Positions 6,508-24,338 of a stretch of DNA of 33,503 bases are shown piece after piece. The notes below the pieces were generated by a model. The model was not told the origin of the DNA. It ran no database searches and saw nothing but the letters and a program-made list of their open reading frames with translations. The DNA is taken from positions 1 to 33,503 of the forward strand of contig CAKZVF010000007.1 in NCBI GenBank assembly GCA_937921995.1, given 5' to 3'. How positions within the stretch are numbered: the first letter of the stretch is position 1; the number at the start of each line of letters is the position of its first letter. The translations under genes and the position numbers were made by a program. This stretch comes from an uncultured Pirellulaceae bacterium. Lineage in GTDB: Bacteria > Planctomycetota > Planctomycetia > Pirellulales > Pirellulaceae.

Positions 6508-8214
6508 TCATTGTCCCGTAACGCTCTGATTTTCATCCACATGGTGTCGGCAATCATTAATGTCTAAGTGTTTAAGCGCCCCGCATTCCTCAAGAAACGA
6601 AAAATCCTTTACGCTGTCGCAATTCGCGATCCTTAGATTTTCAACTCTACTGTTGCGAAGACCCGCGAGGCTGCCCAAATGTTGCAAGGTGTCTGCGCGA
6701 AAACTCTCAAGTTCTGCCAAACCGGAGAGATCTGGCAATTTGGTTATCGCCAGTCCTTCGAGCGTTATGTGCCTTAAGGAAGCCGCATCTGAAATGAAAT
6801 CAAGCGATCCATCTTTGAGCCCCTGACAATCGACCAATCTAAGGAACTGGAGAGCTTGGGGCGGAACAGAAAACTCTATCGCTTGGAGCTGTTTCCCATT
6901 TAACACGGTCAATTTTTGCAGCTGATCAACGGGCTTTAAGAATTTAATCTTAGGGAGCAATTCAATTCCGATGAGATAGAGTTCCTTTAGTTGACTGACG
7001 TTCGTAAACGTAGCCTGTTCCAGCGATTTCAAATTGGCAATGAAGATTTTTTTCAGTCCCGAATGATGAGCTATCCCGGTCACAGACTTTAGCGATCGGG
7101 CGTCATAAATAGTGACAGACTCAAGCGATTCAAGATGCTGCAGCGGGTGCAGGTCCTCAAGTTTCGGGGCATAAACGCAAACCGATCGAAGTTTCGACAT
7201 CCCCTTGAATACCGAAGCATCTTCGATTTGAAGGCTTTCAGGTAGAGTCAACTCTTCCATCAACGAGCACGATAATAAAAAATCTACCTCCTGAAGCTGA
7301 CCCATTTCACCGAGATTAAGACGCCTCAGTCCCTTTGAATTCCTCATCGCATTGACACACTTTAGACCACGGCACCCCTCAAGCGAAACTTCTTCTAACT
7401 TATGCATTTCCGCCAACGCATCAATACTAGCGAGCTTCTCACAATAATCGCACGAGATAGATCGCAAGTCAGTGCAGTTCGCCAATGGCTGGATCGACTC
7501 CAGATGAAAATTGCCGTTAAGTTGCACGGACTCTAATTTCATCAGCGCCTCCAACCCCTCCAATGTTTTGATAGATTCGCATCCCCATAGACTAAGCCGA
7601 TTCAGTCGCGACAGATTGCCGATCGGCGATACGTCGCTGATCGAGTCGGATTGATCGATGAACAATTCCTTGAGCTTTTCAAGCGACTTGATTGAGTCAA
7701 TATTTGTCAATTCATTACATATATTTACCCTCAACGATTTAATATTCGGAAGGTTTTCGATGCCATCAAGTGACGTCAACCTCGGTGACTGTTGTATCGA
7801 CAGGTCTTGCACTTGGGGCAAGTAAGGGAAATTCCTTAGCGACTGAAGTGATTCGATGGTCGTTGAAGTATGGTCAAGCTCCAATCTTTTGAGCTTGTTG
7901 AAAGCTGTCAGCAGCTGAAAGTCAAAAGTATCATCCACCTCCCAAAATTTGATTTTTGCTACGTTGCAAAATATGTTCTCTCCAAGCCAACGACGCAGAA
8001 ACGCCGGTCCAACAGGGGACGTGTTTTTATTCTTCAGTTGGTGCTGATAAGTGAACGTGGTGCTTGGTAGTTGCCTGAGAATTTTTTCAACCGCATCGTT
8101 CTCTCGTTGAACTGTCTTGATCCTATACGCAACAAACGCCGCGCAGCCCGCAAGAATCGCAGTCAGCATCATCAGAAACAAGAGACCAAACTTTGGTCGG
8201 AAGCGCATCTTCAT
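6508..8214 (-). CDS. Membrane-anchored leucine-rich-repeat protein
   Basis: The 568-residue product starts with RFRPKFGLLFLMMLTAILAG, a positively charged N-terminus and one membrane helix (about residues 8-30). This style of N-terminus is common in planctomycetes. A short coiled segment follows, then roughly twenty leucine-rich repeats of about 22-24 residues (pattern LxxLxxLxLxxCxxLxxI) filling residues 105-560, with recurrent CExL/CxGL positions. This suggests a curved binding surface outside the cytoplasm; the ligand is unknown. A second ATG two codons in is equally possible. Both flanks lack same-strand neighbours, so it is a single-gene unit. The base composition looks more AT-rich than neighbouring genes, which could mean transfer, but I did not measure it. 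Confidence 0.85.
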   Translation of the reverse strand: MKMRFRPKFGLLFLMMLTAILAGCAAFVAYRIKTVQRENDAVEKILRQLPSTTFTYQHQLKNKNTSPVGPAFLRRWLGENIFCNVAKIKFWEVDDTFDFQLLTAFNKLKRLELDHTSTTIESLQSLRNFPYLPQVQDLSIQQSPRLTSLDGIENLPNIKSLRVNICNELTNIDSIKSLEKLKELFIDQSDSISDVSPIGNLSRLNRLSLWGCESIKTLEGLEALMKLESVQLNGNFHLESIQPLANCTDLRSISCDYCEKLASIDALAEMHKLEEVSLEGCRGLKCVNAMRNSKGLRRLNLGEMGQLQEVDFLLSCSLMEELTLPESLQIEDASVFKGMSKLRSVCVYAPKLEDLHPLQHLESLESVTIYDARSLKSVTGIAHHSGLKKIFIANLKSLEQATFTNVSQLKELYLIGIELLPKIKFLKPVDQLQKLTVLNGKQLQAIEFSVPPQALQFLRLVDCQGLKDGSLDFISDAASLRHITLEGLAITKLPDLSGLAELESFRADTLQHLGSLAGLRNSRVENLRIANCDSVKDFSFLEECGALKHLDINDCRHHVDENQSVTGQ

Positions 8215-14182: not shown

Positions 14183-14355
14183 GGCGGTTAAAACCAATGC
14201 CGCGTGCCGGCATCACGACCTTTTATACGCAGGATTGGCTACTCGCCTTTTTTTTTACCCTACATATCTTCAGCTACGCTTCCGTCGGGCTTGCCCCGAT
14301 CGGAGCGAGCAACTGACAGGCTACAGGAACACACGACAAGAACCCTTTTGCTCCC

Positions 14356-14399
14356 CGTCGGGCTTGTCAATTGTGATTCCGACCGGGACAAGCCCGACG
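14356..14399. repeat. Perfect 13-bp inverted repeat
   Basis: CGTCGGGCTTGTC (14356-14368) and GACAAGCCCGACG (14387-14399) pair perfectly across an 18-base loop. A further copy of CCGTCGGGCTTG at 14282-14293 lies in direct orientation upstream. No T run follows, so it is not an obvious terminator. Confidence 0.85.
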
Positions 14400-14431
14400 T
14401 AAATCCAGGTTGAAAAAAGGATGAGGGGGAT

Positions 14432-14448
14432 AAAAAGGCTACCAGCCT
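14432..14448 (-). terminator. Weak terminator candidate after the ovoA operon
   Basis: On the minus strand AGGCT-GGT-AGCCT forms a 5-bp stem with a 3-base loop, followed by a run of T, 44 bases beyond the MATE stop codon. The stem is short, so the call is tentative. Confidence 0.4.
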
Positions 14449-14491
14449 GTCCTGCGTTTTTTTCTTTCGTACAGCAGTCTACCTGCCTATC

Positions 14492-15832
14492 CTAGGATCG
14501 TTTTCTTAAAACCGATCTGGCATACATAACGGTCACCAGCGTCATCAACACGGTCGTCGCCGCTGATGTGTACCAGATCCACAGAACGCTTTTATCCCAC
14601 TGAGCAATGAACAGCCACAGCAGCGGCATGGGCAAAATGATTTTGCGCGTCACCGATTCAAAGAATCCGTACATGGGTCGCTTGATCGCTTGCAACATCG
14701 CGATGTGCGTCGACGTCATCACGTAAGACCATTGAACAAAAGCGAAAATCCTCAAACACGTCACACCGATACCGATTACCTCGGGATCATCCGAGAATAT
14801 TCCCATCAGCCGATCGGCCAGTAAAAACATCGCCGCCGAACTGGTGATCGTCAGGATCAATCCGAAACCGTTGCAAACCCTCATCGTTTCATTGATTCGA
14901 TCAAATTTCTTGGCACCGTTATTTTGCCCCACCAGCGCCATGATCGCGGCATACAAACCAAACGATGGCAGCAAAACAATCTGTTCAATCCGCGTGGTCA
15001 CCGCGTAGGCCGCGACGGTCGATTCGCCAAAGGTCTTCAAAAAGTAAGTCGTTACAAAGAACCCCAACGCGACCGACATGATGTTAAAACTGGCCGGCAG
15101 GGCCTGCTGTGCTATCTCGGCGAAGACCCGCACGTCCGGCACAAACTTCTTCCAGTCAGAAACATCCAACATTCCGCGTTTCAGGACCGCGCCAAATATA
15201 TAGATGAGCCCACACATCTGAATCAGCACCGTCGCCAACGCGATTCCGGTGACGCCCATCGCCGGCAATCCGCCGCCGCCATAGACAAACCAAGGATCTA
15301 ACGCCAGATTCAAAAAGAAACCCACAATCAGCACGCGGCTGAAAGTCTTGCTGTCGCCGTGAGCCACCAAGATCCCGTTGCACAGACTGCTCATTATCTG
15401 AAACGTCGCCCCCATAAAAATGGGCCGGATATAGCTCAACGACGTCTGCAAATACTCACCATCGGCCCCCATCAACTGAAACAATGGCCTCGCCGTCACC
15501 AGTCCAATGATTGTCATCGCAATAGAAAGAAGAAAACCTAGCGACAGGCTTTGAGCAATATAAGTCCGTTGACGCGGCAGGTCGTCGCTTCCGATGGCAT
15601 TGGCAATCAATGCCGATGTCCCGCGCGAGGTGCCACTGCTGGAGGCGATGATCATTAGATAAACCGGGAAGCTCAGCCCCAACGCCGCCAAGGCGGTTGT
15701 CGAAATCTGCCCGGCGTAAAACGAATCGACGACGTTGTACATCGTCATGAAGAACAATCCGATGCTGGCGGGAACTGCCAAGTTACGCACATGTCCTGGA
15801 ATCGAACCGGTCGTCAAAGAAGGTTTGTTCAA
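14492..15832 (-). CDS. MATE-family efflux transporter
   Basis: A 446-residue multidrug and toxin extrusion family protein, a cation-coupled antiporter of the inner membrane. The family N-terminus is plain: LTTGSIPGHVRNLAVPASIG, then LFFMTMYNVVDSFYAGQIS. About twelve helices in two related halves follow. There is no ATG. An upstream TTG at 15901 would add 23 residues with no MATE resemblance. I chose the TTG at 15832, which shares the sequence TTGA with the stop codon of the ATP-grasp gene and gives a normal MATE start (MNKPSLTTGS). The overlap indicates translational coupling. As the last gene of the ovoA operon, it likely exports the product of the two enzymes or a related thiol; the substrate is inference. 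Detoxifying efflux is the alternative. Confidence 0.92.
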   Translation of the reverse strand: MNKPSLTTGSIPGHVRNLAVPASIGLFFMTMYNVVDSFYAGQISTTALAALGLSFPVYLMIIASSSGTSRGTSALIANAIGSDDLPRQRTYIAQSLSLGFLLSIAMTIIGLVTARPLFQLMGADGEYLQTSLSYIRPIFMGATFQIMSSLCNGILVAHGDSKTFSRVLIVGFFLNLALDPWFVYGGGGLPAMGVTGIALATVLIQMCGLIYIFGAVLKRGMLDVSDWKKFVPDVRVFAEIAQQALPASFNIMSVALGFFVTTYFLKTFGESTVAAYAVTTRIEQIVLLPSFGLYAAIMALVGQNNGAKKFDRINETMRVCNGFGLILTITSSAAMFLLADRLMGIFSDDPEVIGIGVTCLRIFAFVQWSYVMTSTHIAMLQAIKRPMYGFFESVTRKIILPMPLLWLFIAQWDKSVLWIWYTSAATTVLMTLVTVMYARSVLRKRS

Positions 15833-16995
15833 GATGCGACCAACTGACTTAGTACCCTTTGATTCTGCGTTTGTGATTCCGAGGTCACCGATAAATGACA
15901 AGTCGTATATTCGCCCGATGGTTCTTCGAACGCGCTCAACACTACGACCCGCGCGGGCGATGGGGACTGTCGAAAAGTTTCTGCTTTAGAAATCAGTTGT
16001 TCCAACGAACCCATAAATTTAAAACTGGCCAAATAAATACCTTCGCCCAGTCCCTCCGCGGCGAACATCCGCGATGCCATTAGGAACGGTGTGATTCCCG
16101 TTAACCGAGGATTAACATCCACCAAAAATTGCTGCCCGTCACCGTTGGTAACCACGTCGATTCCGACGACTCCAAAATACGCTTGCGCATGCAGATACTG
16201 AGCCGTTGGTGCAATCATTTTTGCCAGTTCGTCGAAACGCCGTTCTTGTTCTTCGGCTGAGAAACAGCCGCCGCTCCACTTACCACCCTCGTCGAACCGT
16301 TGCTGCGTGAACCCCAACCAGACCACCGTTCCATCTTTTTTCAGATAGAACTGAACCCCCACATCAGATTGAATATCTTCGATGATTGAATTGACGACGT
16401 AGGAGGCGTTTGGCCGTTGTTCCTCGATTTCAATCAGCACGGAAACAGCTTCAATGCTCTCGCGCACGAAAAAATTGCTCAGACCGGCATAACCGTGAGT
16501 CAATTTTACGACACAGGGAGCAGTGATCTCATCAAGCACCGCTGCCTGAGGACAATCAATTTTCTCGATGACCTCTTTGGAGTGCAAGCGATAATAGCTT
16601 TCGGGATCGACGATCTGCGAATCATCGTCAATTGATTCGTGGGGAAACAGCGTGATAAATTGCGCGTCATCTTTCAGCTCGGTCCAACGCGGTACGGCGC
16701 GATCGCCAAGTACGCGCCGCCAATGTTCCATCAGTGCCCGCGGAGGGGGTAATTCCGAGCAAACCGGAATTTCGTTCCCCCAAGCCCACATCAAATGATG
16801 CGGACCGAGCACCTTCAACAACTCTCGCCGCGGCGGAGGCGTTGGGTCATGGATGATGTACTGATTCCGATTCTGAAACCGCGTCGCGTCACTGTTGGAC
16901 GAAGGATACTCCGTCAACAAGTGAGCCTCGGGGCAATCCTGGGCGTAAAGTTCAGACAGAAAAACACCGGAGGCAATACGTTCAATTTTGGTCAT
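15829..16995 (-). CDS. ATP-grasp ligase in ovothiol operon
   Basis: The 388-residue cytoplasmic protein has an ATP-grasp fold in its C-terminal two thirds. The nucleotide-binding Lys and mobile loop are at CVVKLTHGYAGLSN (Lys164, Gly-rich 168-171). The hinge acidic pair is in NSIIED (Glu206, Asp207). The metal-binding strand is FLVDVNPRLTG (Asp293, Asn295, Arg297), with VGIDVVTNGDG before it. Enzymes of this fold activate a carboxylate as an acyl phosphate and join it to an amine or thiol. The N-terminal 100 residues are unlike carbamoyl-phosphate synthase or biotin carboxylase. It starts 10 bases after the ovoA stop and ends in TTGA, overlapping the MATE start. A ligase joining a thiohistidine or its precursor to another small molecule fits the context, but the substrates are not visible in the sequence. 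Confidence 0.88.
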   Translation of the reverse strand: MTKIERIASGVFLSELYAQDCPEAHLLTEYPSSNSDATRFQNRNQYIIHDPTPPPRRELLKVLGPHHLMWAWGNEIPVCSELPPPRALMEHWRRVLGDRAVPRWTELKDDAQFITLFPHESIDDDSQIVDPESYYRLHSKEVIEKIDCPQAAVLDEITAPCVVKLTHGYAGLSNFFVRESIEAVSVLIEIEEQRPNASYVVNSIIEDIQSDVGVQFYLKKDGTVVWLGFTQQRFDEGGKWSGGCFSAEEQERRFDELAKMIAPTAQYLHAQAYFGVVGIDVVTNGDGQQFLVDVNPRLTGITPFLMASRMFAAEGLGEGIYLASFKFMGSLEQLISKAETFRQSPSPARVVVLSAFEEPSGEYTTCHLSVTSESQTQNQRVLSQLVAS

Positions 16996-17005
16996 ACAGC
17001 CGCAA

Positions 17006-19174
17006 TCATTTCTTTTGCCAAACCGTCAACTCGGACTGACCATACTGCCATGTCCGCTCGGTTTCGCGAATCGCAAACGGTATATCAACAGGTTGACTCA
17101 CCATCGTAAATTCCGGAGACAGCACCTCTTCCACGCCCTCGATCGTCGTGAAGTTTTCACCGGTGTTGGCTTTAAACCCACCCAACCATTTTTTGCGCGG
17201 TGTGTGTTCTTCGTCCCAGTTGTAAGGTGAAACCAAAACTAACAAACCACCAGCGTTGATGCGATCCTTGATCAGATTAAGAAACTTCTTCGGGTCGTAT
17301 AAACGGTCGATCAAGTTTCCTGCGAAAACCAAATCATAATCGTTGTACTTTGCCACCAAATTACAGGCATCACCCTGCAAGAAAGCAACTTTGTCTTTCA
17401 CGGCATCGTAACCATCGAAGTCGGAAAGATTGACCTCACGGAAATCATTAATTTCGCCTTGCTGCGTGATCACGTAACGTTGGCGACCGGTCTTCTGCAA
17501 ATTCGCTGGCGCCTCGATCAATCGCACCGAAAGATCAACCGCGTCGACGTGATCAAAATGTTTGGCCAATTCGAACGCCGACCGAGCTGTGGCGCAGCCG
17601 ATGTCCAAAGCACGACCCGTCTTTCGCCCACCGAGCAACTTAACAACTTCATCGACGCACGCCACTGGGAAGTTTGGGACATCCAGTTGTGTTTGACCAT
17701 AATGGAATTCGATGTAACGGGAAACCATCTGGTCGGTCTCATAAACATTCGCCACCGTCTCTGGCAGAGGTTCCGCTTCGACATACCTCAACCCCGAATA
17801 CTGGAAGAAATGCCTGCGGAATGCATACCGCGCTTCCTTGATCGCGTAATTCCCGGTAGAGATCCAGCAGCCTCCCTTGAAGAGATTGTGCTTGCCGTCA
17901 AAGGTCGGTGTTGAAAAATCATCATAGGTCGGGTGAACTTCAAAACCGCCATACCCGTCGATGGGGGTTTCGGTCCATTGCCAGACGTTGCCGACAAGAT
18001 CGAAAAACCCATTCTCAAATTCGTGCCGATCAACAGGGCAGGGCGACATGCCGTGCTCCAAATTGATGTTGCCTGGAGCCTGTTCCCAATGCGGCTGATC
18101 GGTATCAATCGCATTGCGCATCTGATACCACTCGGCTTCGGTCGGCATACGGAAGTGCCGTCCGGTCTTTTCCGATTTCCAATTGCAAAAGGCCTTCGCT
18201 TCGAGGCAATTGATCTCTGCCGGCCACGACCAGGGCATGTCGATCACTTCCAACATCGTTCTCAACTGGAACTCGCCAGAGCCACTTTCATCAGCCACCC
18301 AATAGACCGGATGCTGTGCCTTGCTGAATTCGATCCACGCCCAACCTTCATCGGTCCACAGTTCCTTGTTTTCGTAGCCACCGTCTTCGACAAATTCGAG
18401 GAACTCTTGGTTGGAGACTAAATACTTCGACGCCTTGAAGGCTTTTACTTCTTCGGATGCATACCCGTACTCGTTATCCCAACCATAAATCGGATTGCTT
18501 TTCGATTTCCCCATCTCAACTTTGCCACCGACAACTTTAATTAATTCGTTTTGCGGCGGTTGGCCACCAAGCGGGTTAATCTTCCCCCACATCGGATGTT
18601 CATTGACCAATTCAAGAGGCAACTCGCGCATCAAAATCGACGACGTTTCGAGATGAATCCGCTCGTGCTCGATTCCCATCAGGATAATCCACATCGGACT
18701 ATTCCAATCAATGGGCAGGGTGAATTCGCATTCACGGATAAATTTGTCGACGATCGCGCGGGTCTGGTCGCGATGCCATTTCACCTTCTCAGGCGACGGC
18801 CACTCGTAGTTTTTATCATCCAAATCATCCCACGACATTTCATCGACGCCGATCGCCAACATCGACTCCATCATAGGGTCGACGCGCTGATTGATTAGAT
18901 TGGCAACGTTCAGTTTGTTGATAAAAAAGACAGAGGTATGCCCGTAATAGAAGATCAAAGGTTGCCGCAGGTTGTTAGCGCGGTGATAGAAAGATTCGTC
19001 GGATGCCATGCACTCAAACAAGCTCTCGTACAACGAGAATGAATCATGGAAATACTGGAGGATTTCCGCGCGTTTGGTTTCGACGTCGCCTTCATTTAAC
19101 AGAGGGGTTTTTGTGATCAGGTTGAAGGCGTTTTGCGGGGATCCTTCGGCAGATTTTCTGTTCATTGTTTTCAT
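17006..19174 (-). CDS. ovoA: 5-histidylcysteine sulfoxide synthase / methyltransferase, ovothiol synthesis
   Basis: OvoA joins cysteine to C5 of histidine with O2 and non-haem iron, giving the sulfoxide precursor of ovothiol; its C-terminal domain methylates the imidazole of the resulting thiohistidine. The 722-residue product has three parts. Residues about 30-190 are a DinB-like domain with the iron ligands His79 (YYGHTSVFF) and His170/His174 (IEHERIHLE). Residues about 205-465 are a formylglycine-generating-enzyme-like domain with GNVWQWTET. Residues about 480-722 are a SAM methyltransferase (LDIGCATARSAFEL at 523-536) with the OvoA hallmark TPRKKWLGGFK at 658-668. The fusion separates OvoA from EgtB. 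The ATG has AAAGG upstream. No gene for the PLP-dependent lyase OvoB is adjacent. First gene of a three-gene operon. Confidence 0.95.
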   Translation of the reverse strand: MKTMNRKSAEGSPQNAFNLITKTPLLNEGDVETKRAEILQYFHDSFSLYESLFECMASDESFYHRANNLRQPLIFYYGHTSVFFINKLNVANLINQRVDPMMESMLAIGVDEMSWDDLDDKNYEWPSPEKVKWHRDQTRAIVDKFIRECEFTLPIDWNSPMWIILMGIEHERIHLETSSILMRELPLELVNEHPMWGKINPLGGQPPQNELIKVVGGKVEMGKSKSNPIYGWDNEYGYASEEVKAFKASKYLVSNQEFLEFVEDGGYENKELWTDEGWAWIEFSKAQHPVYWVADESGSGEFQLRTMLEVIDMPWSWPAEINCLEAKAFCNWKSEKTGRHFRMPTEAEWYQMRNAIDTDQPHWEQAPGNINLEHGMSPCPVDRHEFENGFFDLVGNVWQWTETPIDGYGGFEVHPTYDDFSTPTFDGKHNLFKGGCWISTGNYAIKEARYAFRRHFFQYSGLRYVEAEPLPETVANVYETDQMVSRYIEFHYGQTQLDVPNFPVACVDEVVKLLGGRKTGRALDIGCATARSAFELAKHFDHVDAVDLSVRLIEAPANLQKTGRQRYVITQQGEINDFREVNLSDFDGYDAVKDKVAFLQGDACNLVAKYNDYDLVFAGNLIDRLYDPKKFLNLIKDRINAGGLLVLVSPYNWDEEHTPRKKWLGGFKANTGENFTTIEGVEEVLSPEFTMVSQPVDIPFAIRETERTWQYGQSELTVWQKK

Positions 19175-19365
19175 GAGTGGTTACCTTTTAGTTAATCTCA
19201 GTTGTACCGAAAAAAACCAAAAAATGATAACCGCCAGAAGTTGGGAAACCCGCATTTCAGAAAAAATGTCGGCATTAAGCGGCGAAAAAGCAGCCCTGTG
19301 GTGATGCCACAAAAAGCAATTCAAGATCAGCTTCTGAAAATCAGTTTCTGAAAACCAGTGCCGCT

Positions 19366-20367
19366 TCAGCTTAAGCTGACAACGTCCGTGATATCGATCA
19401 GTCCCAGCGGTCGGTTGCGGTGATCCACAACAGGAAGTTCGCTGATGTTACGGCTGGCAAGAATTTCAATTGCAACCGAAGTGCGTTCGGTCGCGGCCAC
19501 CGTGATCGGTTGGTGCGTCATCACATCGGCGATCGGACCATCGAACTGATTGTCTTGTTGCCGTTGGAGCAGCTTTACTAAATCGCTGTCGGTGAAAATC
19601 CCCGAAAGCGCGCCCGATGGGTTGGTCAGCAATACGACTCCCGATCTGCGCTGCTGACCACGATGGGTGACGTAAATCTCGCGCACGGTTTTTGTTTCGC
19701 TGGCCACGCGGCATTGAGCCAACGGACGCATCATTTCAGTAACCAAGGAAAGCTTGACCCCCAAAGATCCTCCCGGATGAAACTTGACAAAGTCGGTCGC
19801 TTGAAAGGAACGCAGTTGTGATACCGATAACGCCAGCGCGTCGCCAAGGGCCAACATAACCGTCGTACTGGCCGAAGGGGCAAGCCCCAAATGGCAGGAC
19901 TCCTCGACGCGTCCGAAATCCAAAACTAAGGAAGCGTGATTGGCGAGGGTTGAATTTAGTTTAGAAGTCAGCGCGATGATGGGAACACCAAACGAATTAA
20001 TGCGCGGCAGCAGATTGACGATCTCTGCCGTTTCACCGCTGTTGGACAATGCGAGAACGACGTCGCCTGCTCGTATGCGGCCAAGATCTCCGTGAATGGC
20101 TTCGGCTGGATGCAGGAAGTGACTGGCGGTTCCCAGCGACGCCAACGACGCTGAGATCTTTTGACCAATCCAACCGGCCTTGCCCATCCCCGTGACAATC
20201 ACGCTACCTTTACAATCCGTCAGCGTTTGGACCGCCGCTGGAAAATCGGCGGGAATGCGCTGGGCCACCTTGGCAATCGCATCGGCCTGATGCTCAAGGA
20301 TCGCTTTGGCGCGGCGGACGTGTTCGAACGCCGAGTGCTGTACGGATTGGCGAGAGGCGGCTGCCAT
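19366..20367 (-). CDS. kdsD: Arabinose-5-phosphate isomerase, SIS plus CBS pair
   Basis: KdsD/KpsF converts ribulose-5-phosphate to arabinose-5-phosphate, the first step towards Kdo, the inner-core sugar of lipopolysaccharide. The 333-residue product has the normal family length and order. An SIS sugar-isomerase domain spans about 45-190, with GMGKAGWIGQKISASLASLG, HPAEAIHGDLGRI and SNSGETAEI. Two CBS domains follow (about 212-333), ending LPVVDHRNRPLGLIDITDVV. The ATG overlaps the stop of the upstream ABC transporter in TAATG, so the two are translated as a coupled pair. That pairing with an MsbA-like exporter supports a lipopolysaccharide role. Confidence 0.95.
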   Translation of the reverse strand: MAAASRQSVQHSAFEHVRRAKAILEHQADAIAKVAQRIPADFPAAVQTLTDCKGSVIVTGMGKAGWIGQKISASLASLGTASHFLHPAEAIHGDLGRIRAGDVVLALSNSGETAEIVNLLPRINSFGVPIIALTSKLNSTLANHASLVLDFGRVEESCHLGLAPSASTTVMLALGDALALSVSQLRSFQATDFVKFHPGGSLGVKLSLVTEMMRPLAQCRVASETKTVREIYVTHRGQQRRSGVVLLTNPSGALSGIFTDSDLVKLLQRQQDNQFDGPIADVMTHQPITVAATERTSVAIEILASRNISELPVVDHRNRPLGLIDITDVVSLS

Positions 20368-22364
20368 TACGCGGCCTCCTCGAGGTCGAGGCTTCTAAGC
20401 CGTTGATAGTCCGGGCACCGCGCCAACAATTGTTGATGCGTACCAAAGTCGACGACTTTCCCGTCGGACATCAGAATAATGTAGTCGGCTAAATCCAATG
20501 TAGAGATTCGATGCGTAATGATCAGCGTCGTTCGGTTTTTAATGAATTTGGACAGCGCTTGGTGAATCAAATTTTCACTTTCGACGTCGATCTGACTGGT
20601 GGCTTCGTCCAAGATCAAGATGTCTGGATTTTTGAGAATCGCACGCGCCAAAGACAGACGCTGCCGTTGGCCACCGGAGAGCTTGCCTCCATGTTCACCA
20701 ATATTGGCATCATAACCCAGTTCTAAATCTTGGATGAATTCGTGGGCGTGTGCCTTCTTCGCGGCTTCGATAATCTTAGCGCGATCCACGGTGGGTTGAC
20801 CATAAGCGATATTTTCGGAGATCGTATCGTTGAACAACATCGTTTGCTGCGTCACATAGCCAATCCGCTGACGCAACTGCTTCAGGCCTGCTTGGCGGAC
20901 ATCGACACCACCAATGCGGATGCTTCCTTCGCCCACTTCATAGAAGCGTGGCACCAAGTTGATCAACGTACTTTTACCACAACCGTTGTGTCCCATAATC
21001 GCCACCGAAGCTCCCGATGGGATCACCGCCGACACACCTTTAAGAATCGGTTTGCTGGGGTCGTAAGCAAATTTGACATCATCAAATTCGATTTGAAGTT
21101 CGCCCGGCGGAATGACCGTTGGGTTCTTCGGGCTATGAACGAGCGGCGTTTGGTCAATCAACGGGAACACGCGATCGGCCGCGACGACGCCGCCTTGGAT
21201 TGTGTTGTAGACGTCCGCCATCTTTCGCAGTGGGTCCGCGATGCCAATCAAGAACCCGAAAAACACCATCACACTACCGAAGTCCATCGCCGTCGAACTC
21301 ATCAGAATCCCGAACAGTCGAGTCTGCTGGTTCAAAACCAAGTAACCTCCGGCGAGCACGCTGAGGCTGATCATGCTGACGCCCAAGAGTTCGTTATTGA
21401 TTCGAGAAAACGAATTATACCAGGCGATCTTCATACTTTTACTATAAACGTCGTTGGCAACGTGCTGGAACCGCTCTCGTTCGCCATCTTCCATCGTGAA
21501 GGCTTTGACGACACGCTGATACGTTAGCGCCTGATAAAGTCGATCCAGCAGTTTCGCGGACTCTTCGATCGCTTTACGGTTGGCGCGTTTGGTGACCCTG
21601 GCCAGCGCGATCATGAGGTAGCCCGCGATGGGACAAATCAGACAAGAGAAAATCAACAACCGCCAGTTAACATAGGCCGCTCCGACCAGACAGGCGATCA
21701 TCTTCATCGGTTCGCGCACCGTTTTTCCAAACAGCACCATGACGGCCTGCCCAATGACGTTCGTTTCACCGCGAATTCGACTGATCAGGTCTCCGGTACC
21801 TTTGACATCCATCTCCGATATTTCCATGTCCAAGACATTTCGGAAAACATCGTTTTGCAAATCCAACACCGTGCGCTGACCCACGCGCGCGACCAACACC
21901 ATATTCCCCATCAAAAAGATGCCGCGCAGTATCGTGCCGATGATCATGAAAACGATCAACCACACCAGCGTTTTATAGGCCGACTTAGGTGCGTACTTGG
22001 TGATGTAGGGTTTAAGCTTTTGATTCCAATCAAATCGCTTTTCCTCTGTCTTAATTTCAGATTGCAGGCGATTGATGCTCCGCTGCGTCTCAACAGGCAA
22101 CGCGATTCTGTCCCCAAGGCCGCCGGCGACTTTCAGTTCGGCGATCTCGCCTTCGAGTTTCGCGATCGCGGCCACAGATTTCTCCGCCCTGTCATCCACC
22201 CATTCGTGCAGAGATTTATCGTGGAGGACAATCTCCACAAACGGGTAGACGGCACCGAGGTTAGCGCCCCACAGAACGGCCACGCAGAGGCAGCAGAAGA
22301 ATGATCCGACAAGGGACCAGCGATATTTGAGCGTCATCCATAACGCTCGTTGGAGATTTTTCAT
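20367..22364 (-). CDS. MsbA-like ABC exporter (fused membrane and ATPase domains)
   Basis: A half-transporter of 665 residues from the ATG at 22364 (MKNLQRALWMTLKYRWSL). An in-frame start 26 codons upstream adds residues without membrane-domain resemblance. The N-terminal half has six helices. The C-terminal half is a complete ATPase: Walker A GHNGCGKST, signature LSGGQRQRLSLARAI, Walker B ILILDEATSQID and the switch histidine in LIITHRIST. Unusually, the loop between helices 1 and 2 carries about 90 extra residues (DDRAEKSVAAIAKLEGEIAE and on to KLKPYITKYAPKSAYK), predicted coiled coil on the outer face. The TAATG overlap with kdsD suggests lipid A-core or another lipid-linked glycan as cargo; multidrug export is the alternative. 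Confidence 0.92.
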   Translation of the reverse strand: MKNLQRALWMTLKYRWSLVGSFFCCLCVAVLWGANLGAVYPFVEIVLHDKSLHEWVDDRAEKSVAAIAKLEGEIAELKVAGGLGDRIALPVETQRSINRLQSEIKTEEKRFDWNQKLKPYITKYAPKSAYKTLVWLIVFMIIGTILRGIFLMGNMVLVARVGQRTVLDLQNDVFRNVLDMEISEMDVKGTGDLISRIRGETNVIGQAVMVLFGKTVREPMKMIACLVGAAYVNWRLLIFSCLICPIAGYLMIALARVTKRANRKAIEESAKLLDRLYQALTYQRVVKAFTMEDGERERFQHVANDVYSKSMKIAWYNSFSRINNELLGVSMISLSVLAGGYLVLNQQTRLFGILMSSTAMDFGSVMVFFGFLIGIADPLRKMADVYNTIQGGVVAADRVFPLIDQTPLVHSPKNPTVIPPGELQIEFDDVKFAYDPSKPILKGVSAVIPSGASVAIMGHNGCGKSTLINLVPRFYEVGEGSIRIGGVDVRQAGLKQLRQRIGYVTQQTMLFNDTISENIAYGQPTVDRAKIIEAAKKAHAHEFIQDLELGYDANIGEHGGKLSGGQRQRLSLARAILKNPDILILDEATSQIDVESENLIHQALSKFIKNRTTLIITHRISTLDLADYIILMSDGKVVDFGTHQQLLARCPDYQRLRSLDLEEAA

Positions 22365-22604
22365 GGTTGTTCTTAGCAAATGCGTCCATGCAATTTTGCG
22401 AATTCCGCGTGAAGAACGGAACTTTGGCTCAAGTTTTACCAATCATCCCATTTTGAACCAAGGGCGATTCGCGCGGCGAGAACTCGACGGCGTCCATTTG
22501 TCTCTTGAAATTACCACCGCCGCCAAAACGCGAGGCCAAAGACAAATGATCGCGGTGATGCTAGCAGCCCCTAACCCACCAACGGAAGAATTCTTCAGGG
22601 TCTA

Positions 22605-24095
22605 TCATACGCCTGCGGACAACAGATCAATGAAGGGCGCGATGTCCAGCAGGTTCACCGCTCCGCTTTGATCACAATCCGCTTCGGTCTGATACCCATT
22701 GTTGGACAGCACGTTGATGAAAGGCATGATGTCTCCGAAGTCGGTAACCCCATCAAGATTCACATCGCCTAACTGAAATGGCCCGTTCAAAATATTGTCC
22801 AGTTTTTCGGTCAATGCATCGTAGTTCGTTTGCTGAACTTGCGTCAAAGATTCGTCGAACAGATTCCGATTCTCATTAGCCAAATTAAACAGATTTTCAG
22901 TCCCATCGTCAAAGCGAATCAGTTTCCAGCCATCCTGCTTCACGGTTTTGCCGTCGTTGTTCGAAGGTGTCGAACCCGGCGAAACGAATCGTTCGGAGAA
23001 CTGGCAAGTGTGAATCACATCAGCAGCAGGATCGACGACGTAGGGCGCAAAGGAACGAGAATCAGTGGCCGCTCCATCAGCAATCACACCGGCGCTCTGA
23101 CCGGCTAAATCCAAAACGGTCGTGAACACATCCACCAAAGAAATCAAACCATCATGAGTCCGTCCCGGTGAAGTAATATCGGCACCGCTGACGATACATG
23201 GAATTTTAACTCCGCCTTCGAAAAGTGTTCCTTTGGATCCACGAAGGCTTGTGCCAGCCGGAAGTGTCATAGTCGGCGTGCCGTTGTCACCCACAAATAC
23301 GACCACCGTGTTGGCACGAACGGCTGGATCGAGTTCATTTAATAGGCGTCCGATTTCGGTATCCATTGCCTCAACCATCGCCAAATAATAGTCACGCGGA
23401 TTGGCGGCAATATCCGCATCCGTCCCAGACAAATTCGCGGTGTGCAAGTCGTTGGGAGGAAGATGCCAAGGAGAATGGGGAGCATTAAACGCTACCCAAG
23501 CGAACCAAGGATTCGCTCCCTGTTGTTGAATCCAATTCGATGCGTCACTGGCGGTAACACTGGTCACATATTCGGTGACAGGATTGCGTCGATTATTGAC
23601 GACGACTCCGTTCTCGACCTTCACCCATTGAGAATAGTCCGTCACACCGCCACCTATTGCACCACAGTAGTGGTCAAATCCCATCAAATTCGGATTGTCG
23701 TTTCCGCCATTGCTCGTGCCACTCAAATGCCACTTGCCAAAACAACCCGTTGCATATCCAGCGGTTTGAAACGCTTGGGCGACGGTTCCCTCATCAAGCG
23801 CTGGTGTCCCACCGACCTCCCCAACTCCAGTGCGAAAGCCGTATCGTCCGGTAAGAATTTGTGCGCGGGCCGGTGAGCACGTTGGGCTTCCCCAGCAATT
23901 GGTAAATCGAACGCCGGCCCCGGCCAATGAATCCAGCGTCGGCGTCGGTGGACCGTCGGTCGCCATAAAGAGATTTAGCGAATCAACACCTAAGTCATCG
24001 GCAACCAGTAGCAAGACGTTTTTCTGTTGAGCACTAACTTGAGCAGTGCTGAAACAGCCCAAAACGGCAAAAGTAATCACGATACGGAAAATCAC
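22605..24095 (-). CDS. Secreted Cys-type sulfatase with dockerin-like tail
   Basis: A sulfatase that removes sulfate esters from polysaccharides or other substrates, acting outside the cytoplasm. The start is GTG at 24095, with AGGAGA 5-10 bases upstream; it gives MIFRIVITFAVLGCFST, a signal peptide cut after VSA-Q. An ATG 19 codons upstream has no such support. The 496-residue product has metal residues ADD (Asp33, Asp34) and the formylglycine motif CSPAR at residues 73-77. GKWHLSG and FVGDNGTP hold further active-site residues, and SKGTLFEGGVKIP follows. The last 60 residues carry two EF-hand-like dockerin repeats (DVNLDGVTDFGDIMPFINVL and DCDQSGAVNLLDIAPFIDLL), as in many planctomycete exoenzymes. 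It needs a formylglycine-generating enzyme or anaerobic maturase encoded elsewhere. It stands alone. Confidence 0.95.
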   Translation of the reverse strand: MIFRIVITFAVLGCFSTAQVSAQQKNVLLLVADDLGVDSLNLFMATDGPPTPTLDSLAGAGVRFTNCWGSPTCSPARAQILTGRYGFRTGVGEVGGTPALDEGTVAQAFQTAGYATGCFGKWHLSGTSNGGNDNPNLMGFDHYCGAIGGGVTDYSQWVKVENGVVVNNRRNPVTEYVTSVTASDASNWIQQQGANPWFAWVAFNAPHSPWHLPPNDLHTANLSGTDADIAANPRDYYLAMVEAMDTEIGRLLNELDPAVRANTVVVFVGDNGTPTMTLPAGTSLRGSKGTLFEGGVKIPCIVSGADITSPGRTHDGLISLVDVFTTVLDLAGQSAGVIADGAATDSRSFAPYVVDPAADVIHTCQFSERFVSPGSTPSNNDGKTVKQDGWKLIRFDDGTENLFNLANENRNLFDESLTQVQQTNYDALTEKLDNILNGPFQLGDVNLDGVTDFGDIMPFINVLSNNGYQTEADCDQSGAVNLLDIAPFIDLLSAGV

Positions 24096-24338
24096 ATTTT
24101 CTCCTGATCTGCGGTGGGTAGGCTGAACGTGGTTGGGGAATGCCTCTAACAAATGTCTGTCACGTAGACCTTCTCGATCAGAGGACCAGCTGTCGATATT
24201 TTAACATGCCACCAAGTGATTTCAGAGAGATTTTCCAGTTTGAAGTACCGGTCGTAGAGCGAAACAACCACATCATGACACAGCACTTGCGCGATTTCGT
24301 ACCTTTATCCACTACCGTTGCTGCGGCAATGAAATCTA

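Follow-up and report, generated by a model that had tools for sequence, protein, structure and literature searches.

An ATP-grasp ligase gene paired with ovoA in two bacterial phyla suggests an unrecognised ovothiol-amino acid compound

In a stretch of 33,503 nucleotides from an uncultured Pirellulaceae bacterium (contig CAKZVF010000007.1; called the window here), the gene of the ovothiol enzyme OvoA is followed on the same strand by genes for an ATP-grasp ligase and a MATE transporter. It belongs to contig 7 of an assembly of 4.8 Mb, which is 77% complete and 5% contaminated. The ovoA-ligase pair is real and conserved, with the MATE gene as a frequent partner: in all 25 genomes found to carry the ligase gene, ovoA lies closely upstream of it on the same strand, in one of them with an extra open reading frame between. 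The occurrence of this pairing in two phyla suggests an unrecognised compound of ovothiol and an amino acid, which may be secreted. We lean, by a little, towards a reading in which the ligase links 5-thiohistidine or ovothiol to an amino acid through an amide bond and, in planctomycetes, the MATE protein exports the product, the genes together forming a portable thiohistidine cassette. The pair and its frequent MATE gene are best explained as a new tailoring variant of the ovothiol pathway.

Linkage and co-occurrence of the cassette genes

An earlier note, made from the sequence of the window, had described the three genes as one compact operon for an ovothiol conjugate. A ligase profile, run over a species-level collection of genomes, gave 31 pattern matches, of which 23 loci encode a relative. 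These loci, the window and genome G025 make up the 25 ligase genomes. The idea of a linked pathway came through this gene-neighbourhood comparison well, as close ATP-grasp homologues adjoin ovoA in every one of them. Since the first cassette gene upstream of the ligase gene is ovoA every time (25 of 25), the arrangement exceeds chance. The named relatives are Mariniblastus and other Pirellulaceae, which suggests a Mariniblastus-like planctomycete as the source of the window, and two of the 25 are Alphaproteobacteria. At two loci (L073 and L075) the contig holds just the 3′ part of ovoA, and at L067, from a Mariniblastus bin, the ovoA frame is broken. The latter break (7239–7341) falls in the methyltransferase domain, separates two BLAST pieces by about 100 bases and may be an assembly error. 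The gap between ovoA and the ligase gene ranges from about 1 to 1086 bases in the relatives, so tight spacing is not general; the longest gap (L074) contains a 240-residue open reading frame that looks PEP-CTERM-like by eye. Apart from the three cassette genes, a sulfatase-like family (10 loci, on varying strands) is the only one present at more than three of the 25 loci. Otherwise the flanks differ, and what is conserved is thus the cassette. Across the 23 loci, OvoA has a median identity of 72% to the window, the ligase 55% and MATE 62% (17 loci with MATE).

Co-occurrence was followed by searching 60 genomes with each protein (the window's own genome, 27 of its genus, 9 of its family and 23 of its order). 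In the own genome and the 27 genus members, a strong OvoA was found in 22, the ligase in 20 and MATE (E ≤1e-60) in 21. The ligase is present in 20 of the 22 ovoA-positive genomes and in none of the six ovoA-negative ones (Fisher 7e-5; related genomes are not independent). For MATE the counts are 21 of 22 and none of six (Fisher 2e-5, uncorrected for phylogeny). The six genomes without ovoA (G005, G011, G023, G024, G026 and G027) lack all three genes in this search; four of them gave only OvoA matches of 23–33% identity, which we read as EgtB-like. The two ovoA-positive genus genomes without the ligase are G021, whose contig ends within ovoA, and G006, which is discussed below. Among the 32 genomes outside the genus, one (G030) has ovoA and the ligase, two (G036 and G043) have ovoA without the ligase, and none has MATE at E 1e-60.

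Of 385 genomes of the class Alphaproteobacteria, 3 have an OvoA at E 1e-100, as do 9 of 392 of the window's phylum. The ligase is rare: 1 of 249 genomes in the sampled alphaproteobacterial order has it, and the alphaproteobacterial genome G466 has ovoA without it. We rejected the possibility that the ligase gene is a common planctomycete gene standing here by accident, as an even sample of the phylum gave matches in only 8 of 392 genomes. The window's own match is the sole strong one; in the other seven the alignment spans no more than 144 profile positions, at E 4.5e-10 or weaker, and none of the eight other ovoA-carrying planctomycetes of the phylum sample is among the ligase matches in that sample.

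The two alphaproteobacterial loci, from Hellea sp. (L076) and an uncultured member of Caulobacterales (L079), carry the ovoA-ligase pair with ligases that are 49% identical to that of the window. In a midpoint-rooted tree of 32 OvoA rows, a branch with 100/100 support sets apart 21 ligase-linked rows, both alphaproteobacterial ones included, and L040, where the ligase appears to have been lost. The other side holds ten OvoAs of planctomycetes, Alphaproteobacteria, Rahnella, Photobacterium and Sulfurovum. The alphaproteobacterial rows of the ligase tree group with a Pirellulaceae bin (L082; 97/99). As the linked OvoAs form one clade across both phyla, the pair probably had one origin and moved between the phyla together. 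Planctomycete contamination was considered for the Hellea contig and rejected, since for its RecJ all eight best matches listed (of 113 plasmid records) are alphaproteobacterial. The mannonate dehydratase of L079 has mixed taxa among the best 8 of 443 matches.

Linkage of this kind could also arise if the ligase makes an unrelated dipeptide and shares just its regulation with ovoA, for instance under oxidative stress, the MATE protein exporting that dipeptide or generic toxins. ATP-grasp fold relatives do act on varied substrates, and distant homologues of the ligase (about 25% identity) sit on two cyanobacterial plasmids, of Gloeothece and Kovacikia, with no ovoA within 8 kb. The absence of the ligase from all six ovoA-negative genus genomes, and a pair that apparently crossed phyla with ovoA while the flanks changed, make this explanation unlikely.

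The enzymes and the proposed pathway

The window protein is an OvoA of 722 residues with both domains, and production of 5-histidylcysteine sulfoxide and ovothiol is predicted from it. It scores 665 bits against TIGR04344 (cut-off 400) and 304 bits against TIGR04345 (cut-off 170), and phmmer matches it to PDB 8khq with E 2e-240. Residues H79, H170 and H174, which we take to be the iron-binding histidines, and Y417, presumably the active-site tyrosine, are invariant across the 32 aligned OvoAs. Just eight clade-specific invariants set the ligase-linked clade apart in these rows. It looks like an ordinary OvoA, which favours free histidine and cysteine as its substrates and makes a pathway with the ligase supplying OvoA less likely. 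In such a pathway the ligase would act first, and this OvoA clade would use an aminoacyl-cysteine or a histidyl dipeptide instead of free cysteine; mycobacterial EgtB uses gamma-glutamylcysteine. The linkage and the joint transfer fit this order equally well. It would be at odds with the small number of clade-specific positions and the four residues kept in 32 of 32 rows, and no residue-removing gene family recurs beside the cassette, though no search aimed at an EgtC-like enzyme was made. We consider it very improbable. A sequence search of the PDB also showed solved structures of two methyltransferases that stand alone, OvoM and OvsM.

The only model whose cut-off the ligase reaches is the general ATP-grasp_3 model, PF02655 (36 bits, cut-off 23), which is found in 21 of 21 members of the family. 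The window ligase stays below the cut-offs of the LdmS model NF047900 (34 of 475 bits; 68 bits for the L079 ligase) and of the BesA model NF042917 (30 of 750 bits). No named family's cut-off is reached by the ligase homologues, which also favours the idea of a linked pathway. An AlphaFold2 model (mean pLDDT 93.1, pTM 0.91) was compared with known structures by Foldseek. The top entries are 7r8q/7r8p (SAOUHSC_02373, which we take to be LdmS), with a TM score of 0.71 to 0.67 and 16% identity. These are followed by 8ynd/8ynq and 3wvq/3wvr, and all of rows 1–17 are ATP-grasp ligase-type entries; BesA (8yi6) is row 26, behind PurK and a carboxylase. Residues D280, D293, N295, P296 and R297, which include a DxNPR motif, are invariant in 21 of 21 ligases. 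H49, H66, H67, W72, H167 and Y169 are invariant as well and may line the substrate pocket. The ligase profile aligns to 7r8p over the metal site (E 2e-8), where D280, D293, N295 and R297 match D, D, N and R, which presumably bind the metal there. The modelled fold and the invariant metal-site residues make amide-bond formation through an acyl phosphate likely. Some ATP-grasp enzymes form bonds other than amides. The ligase was also considered as a known defence protein and this was rejected, with no PADLOC family matched at E 0.01. On the Gloeothece plasmid (L145, 7968–10461), the distant homologue (25%) adjoins an isoaspartyl peptidase/asparaginase gene, a weak hint of an acidic partner. A partial ligase match in Gemmobacter adjoins a GNAT gene.

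Both alphaproteobacterial copies have a gene for a pyridoxal phosphate (PLP) protein of 396–398 residues directly upstream of ovoA. The two proteins are 79% identical and related to SufS and EgtE, and that of L079 is below the cut-offs of both (EgtE 140 of 400 bits, SufS 199 of 475 bits). The gene is probably that of the lyase, an OvoB candidate from a PLP family other than that of the PatB lyase. In Sulfurovum (L149, 8105–9262) an annotated PatB lyase gene follows ovoA. Two further alphaproteobacterial OvoAs (G466 and G1003) have neither the ligase gene nor this PLP gene within about 8 kb. In the planctomycetes, the comparison of flanks over the 25 loci gave no lyase gene that recurs beside the cassette. 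TIGR04350, the model of the PatB-type lyase, has below-cut-off matches in 5 of the 27 genus members. The matches of the L079 PLP protein listed in 40 relatives are only 21–33% identical, and the SufS-like relatives in the window's genome are distant.

For want of an adjacent OvoB, the earlier note had suggested histidylcysteine sulfoxide itself as the ligase substrate, with no lyase involved. The planctomycete copies, without a recurrent lyase gene, and the window's genome, where no TIGR04350 lyase was found, would suit this. The alphaproteobacterial PLP gene and the retained methyltransferase domain, which according to a 2025 paper acts on 5-thiohistidine (PMC12631010), speak instead for 5-thiohistidine or ovothiol as the substrate. 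OvoB is described there as a broad-specificity lyase (PMC12631010), so an unlinked enzyme could serve in the planctomycetes. The sulfoxide is thus disfavoured, and we give it little credence as the substrate.

The pathway that we propose would run as follows. OvoA would couple cysteine to histidine as the sulfoxide, and a PLP lyase, probably the product of the neighbouring gene in the alphaproteobacterial copies, would free 5-thiohistidine, which the C-terminal domain of OvoA can methylate to ovothiol A. The ATP-grasp enzyme would activate a carboxylate as an acyl phosphate and form an amide with 5-thiohistidine or ovothiol, so that a thiohistidine dipeptide results. The partner could plausibly be an acidic amino acid, a guess by analogy with LdmS (aspartate) and BesA (glutamate). 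The planctomycete MATE protein would then export the dipeptide, or ovothiol itself. We infer every substrate, the orientation of the amide bond and the export. More tentatively, and with slightly greater doubt than for the pathway itself, the product may belong to an undescribed class of thiols, aminoacyl-thiohistidine dipeptides, made by an OvoA-dedicated ligase, exported by MATE in marine planctomycetes and encoded by genes that travel between phyla as a cassette.

Several points weigh against this pathway. The scan used exact peptide patterns from ovoA-linked ligases, and more diverged, unlinked homologues would escape it; the cyanobacterial plasmid homologues do stand apart from ovoA. Most of the genomes are metagenome bins. 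The ligase substrate is assigned from gene context and fold, a TM score of 0.71 at 16% identity does not carry specificity over, and the scores fall far short of the LdmS and BesA cut-offs. At E 1e-40, the window's genome (77% complete) gave no PatB-type lyase. Lastly, 6 of the 25 genomes do not have MATE next to the pair, and in G006 ovoA is followed by MATE about 136 bases on, with the ligase neither between them nor elsewhere in the assembly.

The transporter and the layout of the locus

The MATE protein passes PF01554 and TIGR00797 (228 bits, cut-off 147) and meets none of the listed MATE equivalog cut-offs. Its place as a cassette member, as first proposed, holds in part: the gene comes directly after the ligase gene in 19 of the 25 ligase genomes. 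Two others have a 58–60% identical MATE elsewhere (L077 on the same contig, about 22 kb off; L082 on another contig). No close MATE was found in the genomes of L066, L075, L076 and L079, the best match being 29% identical (E 8e-41, in the L076 genome); the L076 contig ends about 500 bases downstream of the ligase gene.

The arrangement in G006 means that MATE may serve ovothiol itself and need not serve the ligase product. The OvoA of this genome lies inside the linked clade, so the ligase was apparently lost there secondarily, provided that the fragmented assembly can be trusted. One could therefore suppose that MATE exports ovothiol or its disulfide while the ligase modifies part of the pool only, a version compatible with our reading of the ligase and different on the exporter only. 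MATE tracks ovoA in the genus slightly better than the ligase does (21 against 20 of 22). Yet G006 is a single assembly in 530 contigs, one of which ends inside MATE, and the alphaproteobacterial and some Pirellulaceae copies have ovoA and the ligase gene without a close MATE. We regard export of ovothiol rather than the dipeptide as rather unlikely.

Coordinates and family models bear out the arrangement first read from the window (Table 1), in which the three genes share a strand, 10 bases separate ovoA from the ligase gene, and the TTG start of MATE overlaps the ligase stop as TTGA. Analysis of the open reading frames places the ligase ATG at 16995 and its TGA stop at 15831–15829. An alternative MATE start lies 69 bases further upstream, at 15901. 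The TTG at 15832 is favoured, since a −4 overlap is possible in the loci of several relatives. A scan of 14183–19400 for sigma-70-type promoters gave no site in the gap upstream of ovoA and five in total, against 4.4 in shuffled sequences. Terminator-like hairpins are found 3′ of MATE (14448–14436) and upstream of ovoA (19314–19294); they are weak evidence, because 12 such sites occur against 7.3 in shuffles.

Table 1. Positions of the cassette genes and associated features (window coordinates unless a locus is named)
Feature	Position	Strand	Assignment and basis
ovoA	17006..19174	minus	5-histidylcysteine sulfoxide synthase with 5-thiohistidine N-methyltransferase domain; TIGR04344 and TIGR04345 over cut-off
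ATP-grasp amino-acid/peptide ligase gene	15829..16995 (stop codon included)	minus	PF02655, fold, ovoA linkage
MATE efflux transporter gene	14492..15832	minus	PF01554 and TIGR00797; TTG start overlaps ligase stop
191-base gap between ovoA and kpsF-like gene	19175..19365	minus	presumed cassette promoter region
SufS/EgtE-related PLP gene	L076 4575–5765; L079 4581–5777		directly upstream of ovoA; candidate OvoB

Upstream of ovoA (19366–22442) are genes for a KpsF-like sugar-phosphate isomerase and an MsbA-like ABC transporter, which overlap by one base; among the 25 loci compared, this pair is present only in the two closest relatives (L062 and L063). The sulfatase encoded at 22605–24152 has a C-terminal dockerin type I match that is barely at the Pfam cut-off (23.0 against 22.9 bits). 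Downstream of MATE (14282–14400) there are three copies of a AAGCCCGACGG-like motif, in both orientations. The entire window has four matches to it at no more than one mismatch, which 1 of 100 shuffles reaches.

Comparison with known systems

The earlier note knew of no described pathway with this gene set, and the literature that we searched, with most subscription literature outside its scope, likewise gave no published description of ovoA with an ATP-grasp ligase and MATE. The same search found nothing that ties ovothiol to planctomycetes, or 5-thiohistidine to a biosynthetic gene cluster with a ligase; a review that names both ovothiol and ATP-grasp enzymes treats them separately, without connecting the two.

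Of the ligases with known structures, LdmS shares the ATP-grasp fold (TM score 0.71 to 7r8q) and the aligned D/D/N/R residues, and differs in its low identity (16%) and in a score far from its model's cut-off. Its reaction is taken from the NCBIfam name (L-aspartate--L-methionine ligase). The L-propargylglycine--L-glutamate ligase BesA (8yi6) and the Streptomyces peptide ligase 8ynd are also ATP-grasp enzymes that join amino acids (Foldseek E 6e-12 and 4e-15). They are 14% and 11–12% identical to the ligase, respectively, and their names mention no thiohistidine substrate.

Few enzymes are known that use 5-thiohistidines. If the proposed pathway is true, this would be, to our knowledge, the first ligase known to do so, and a directly testable enzyme. 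If such a ligase is dedicated to the pathway and often accompanied by an exporter, marine planctomycetes would be expected to secrete an ovothiol derivative. The findings also suggest that parts of the ovothiol pathway move between phyla as modules.

The pathway to ovothiol A (OvoA, OvoB) has in common with the cassette an OvoA with both domains over both NCBIfam cut-offs. The cassette differs from it by the conserved ATP-grasp ligase, often with MATE, and by planctomycete copies without a recurrent adjacent lyase gene. A closer precedent comes from Liao et al., who inspected ovoA neighbourhoods and described a 5-thiohistidine N-acetyltransferase (5THNAT) encoded beside ovoA in Proteiniphilum and other Bacteroidota (PMC12631010). 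The accessible text of that paper does not mention an ATP-grasp ligase among the ovoA neighbours. It names OvoA as the only other enzyme then known to recognise a 5-thiohistidine derivative, and calls finding enzymes that use 5-thiohistidine a critical prerequisite for understanding the function of these compounds (PMC12631010). 5THNAT is an acetyl-CoA-dependent enzyme of the GNAT type, and some of its partner OvoAs lack the methyltransferase domain, which the cassette OvoA has kept. The two systems are alike in having an acylating enzyme encoded beside ovoA, predicted in our case, and thereby a second fate for 5-thiohistidine.

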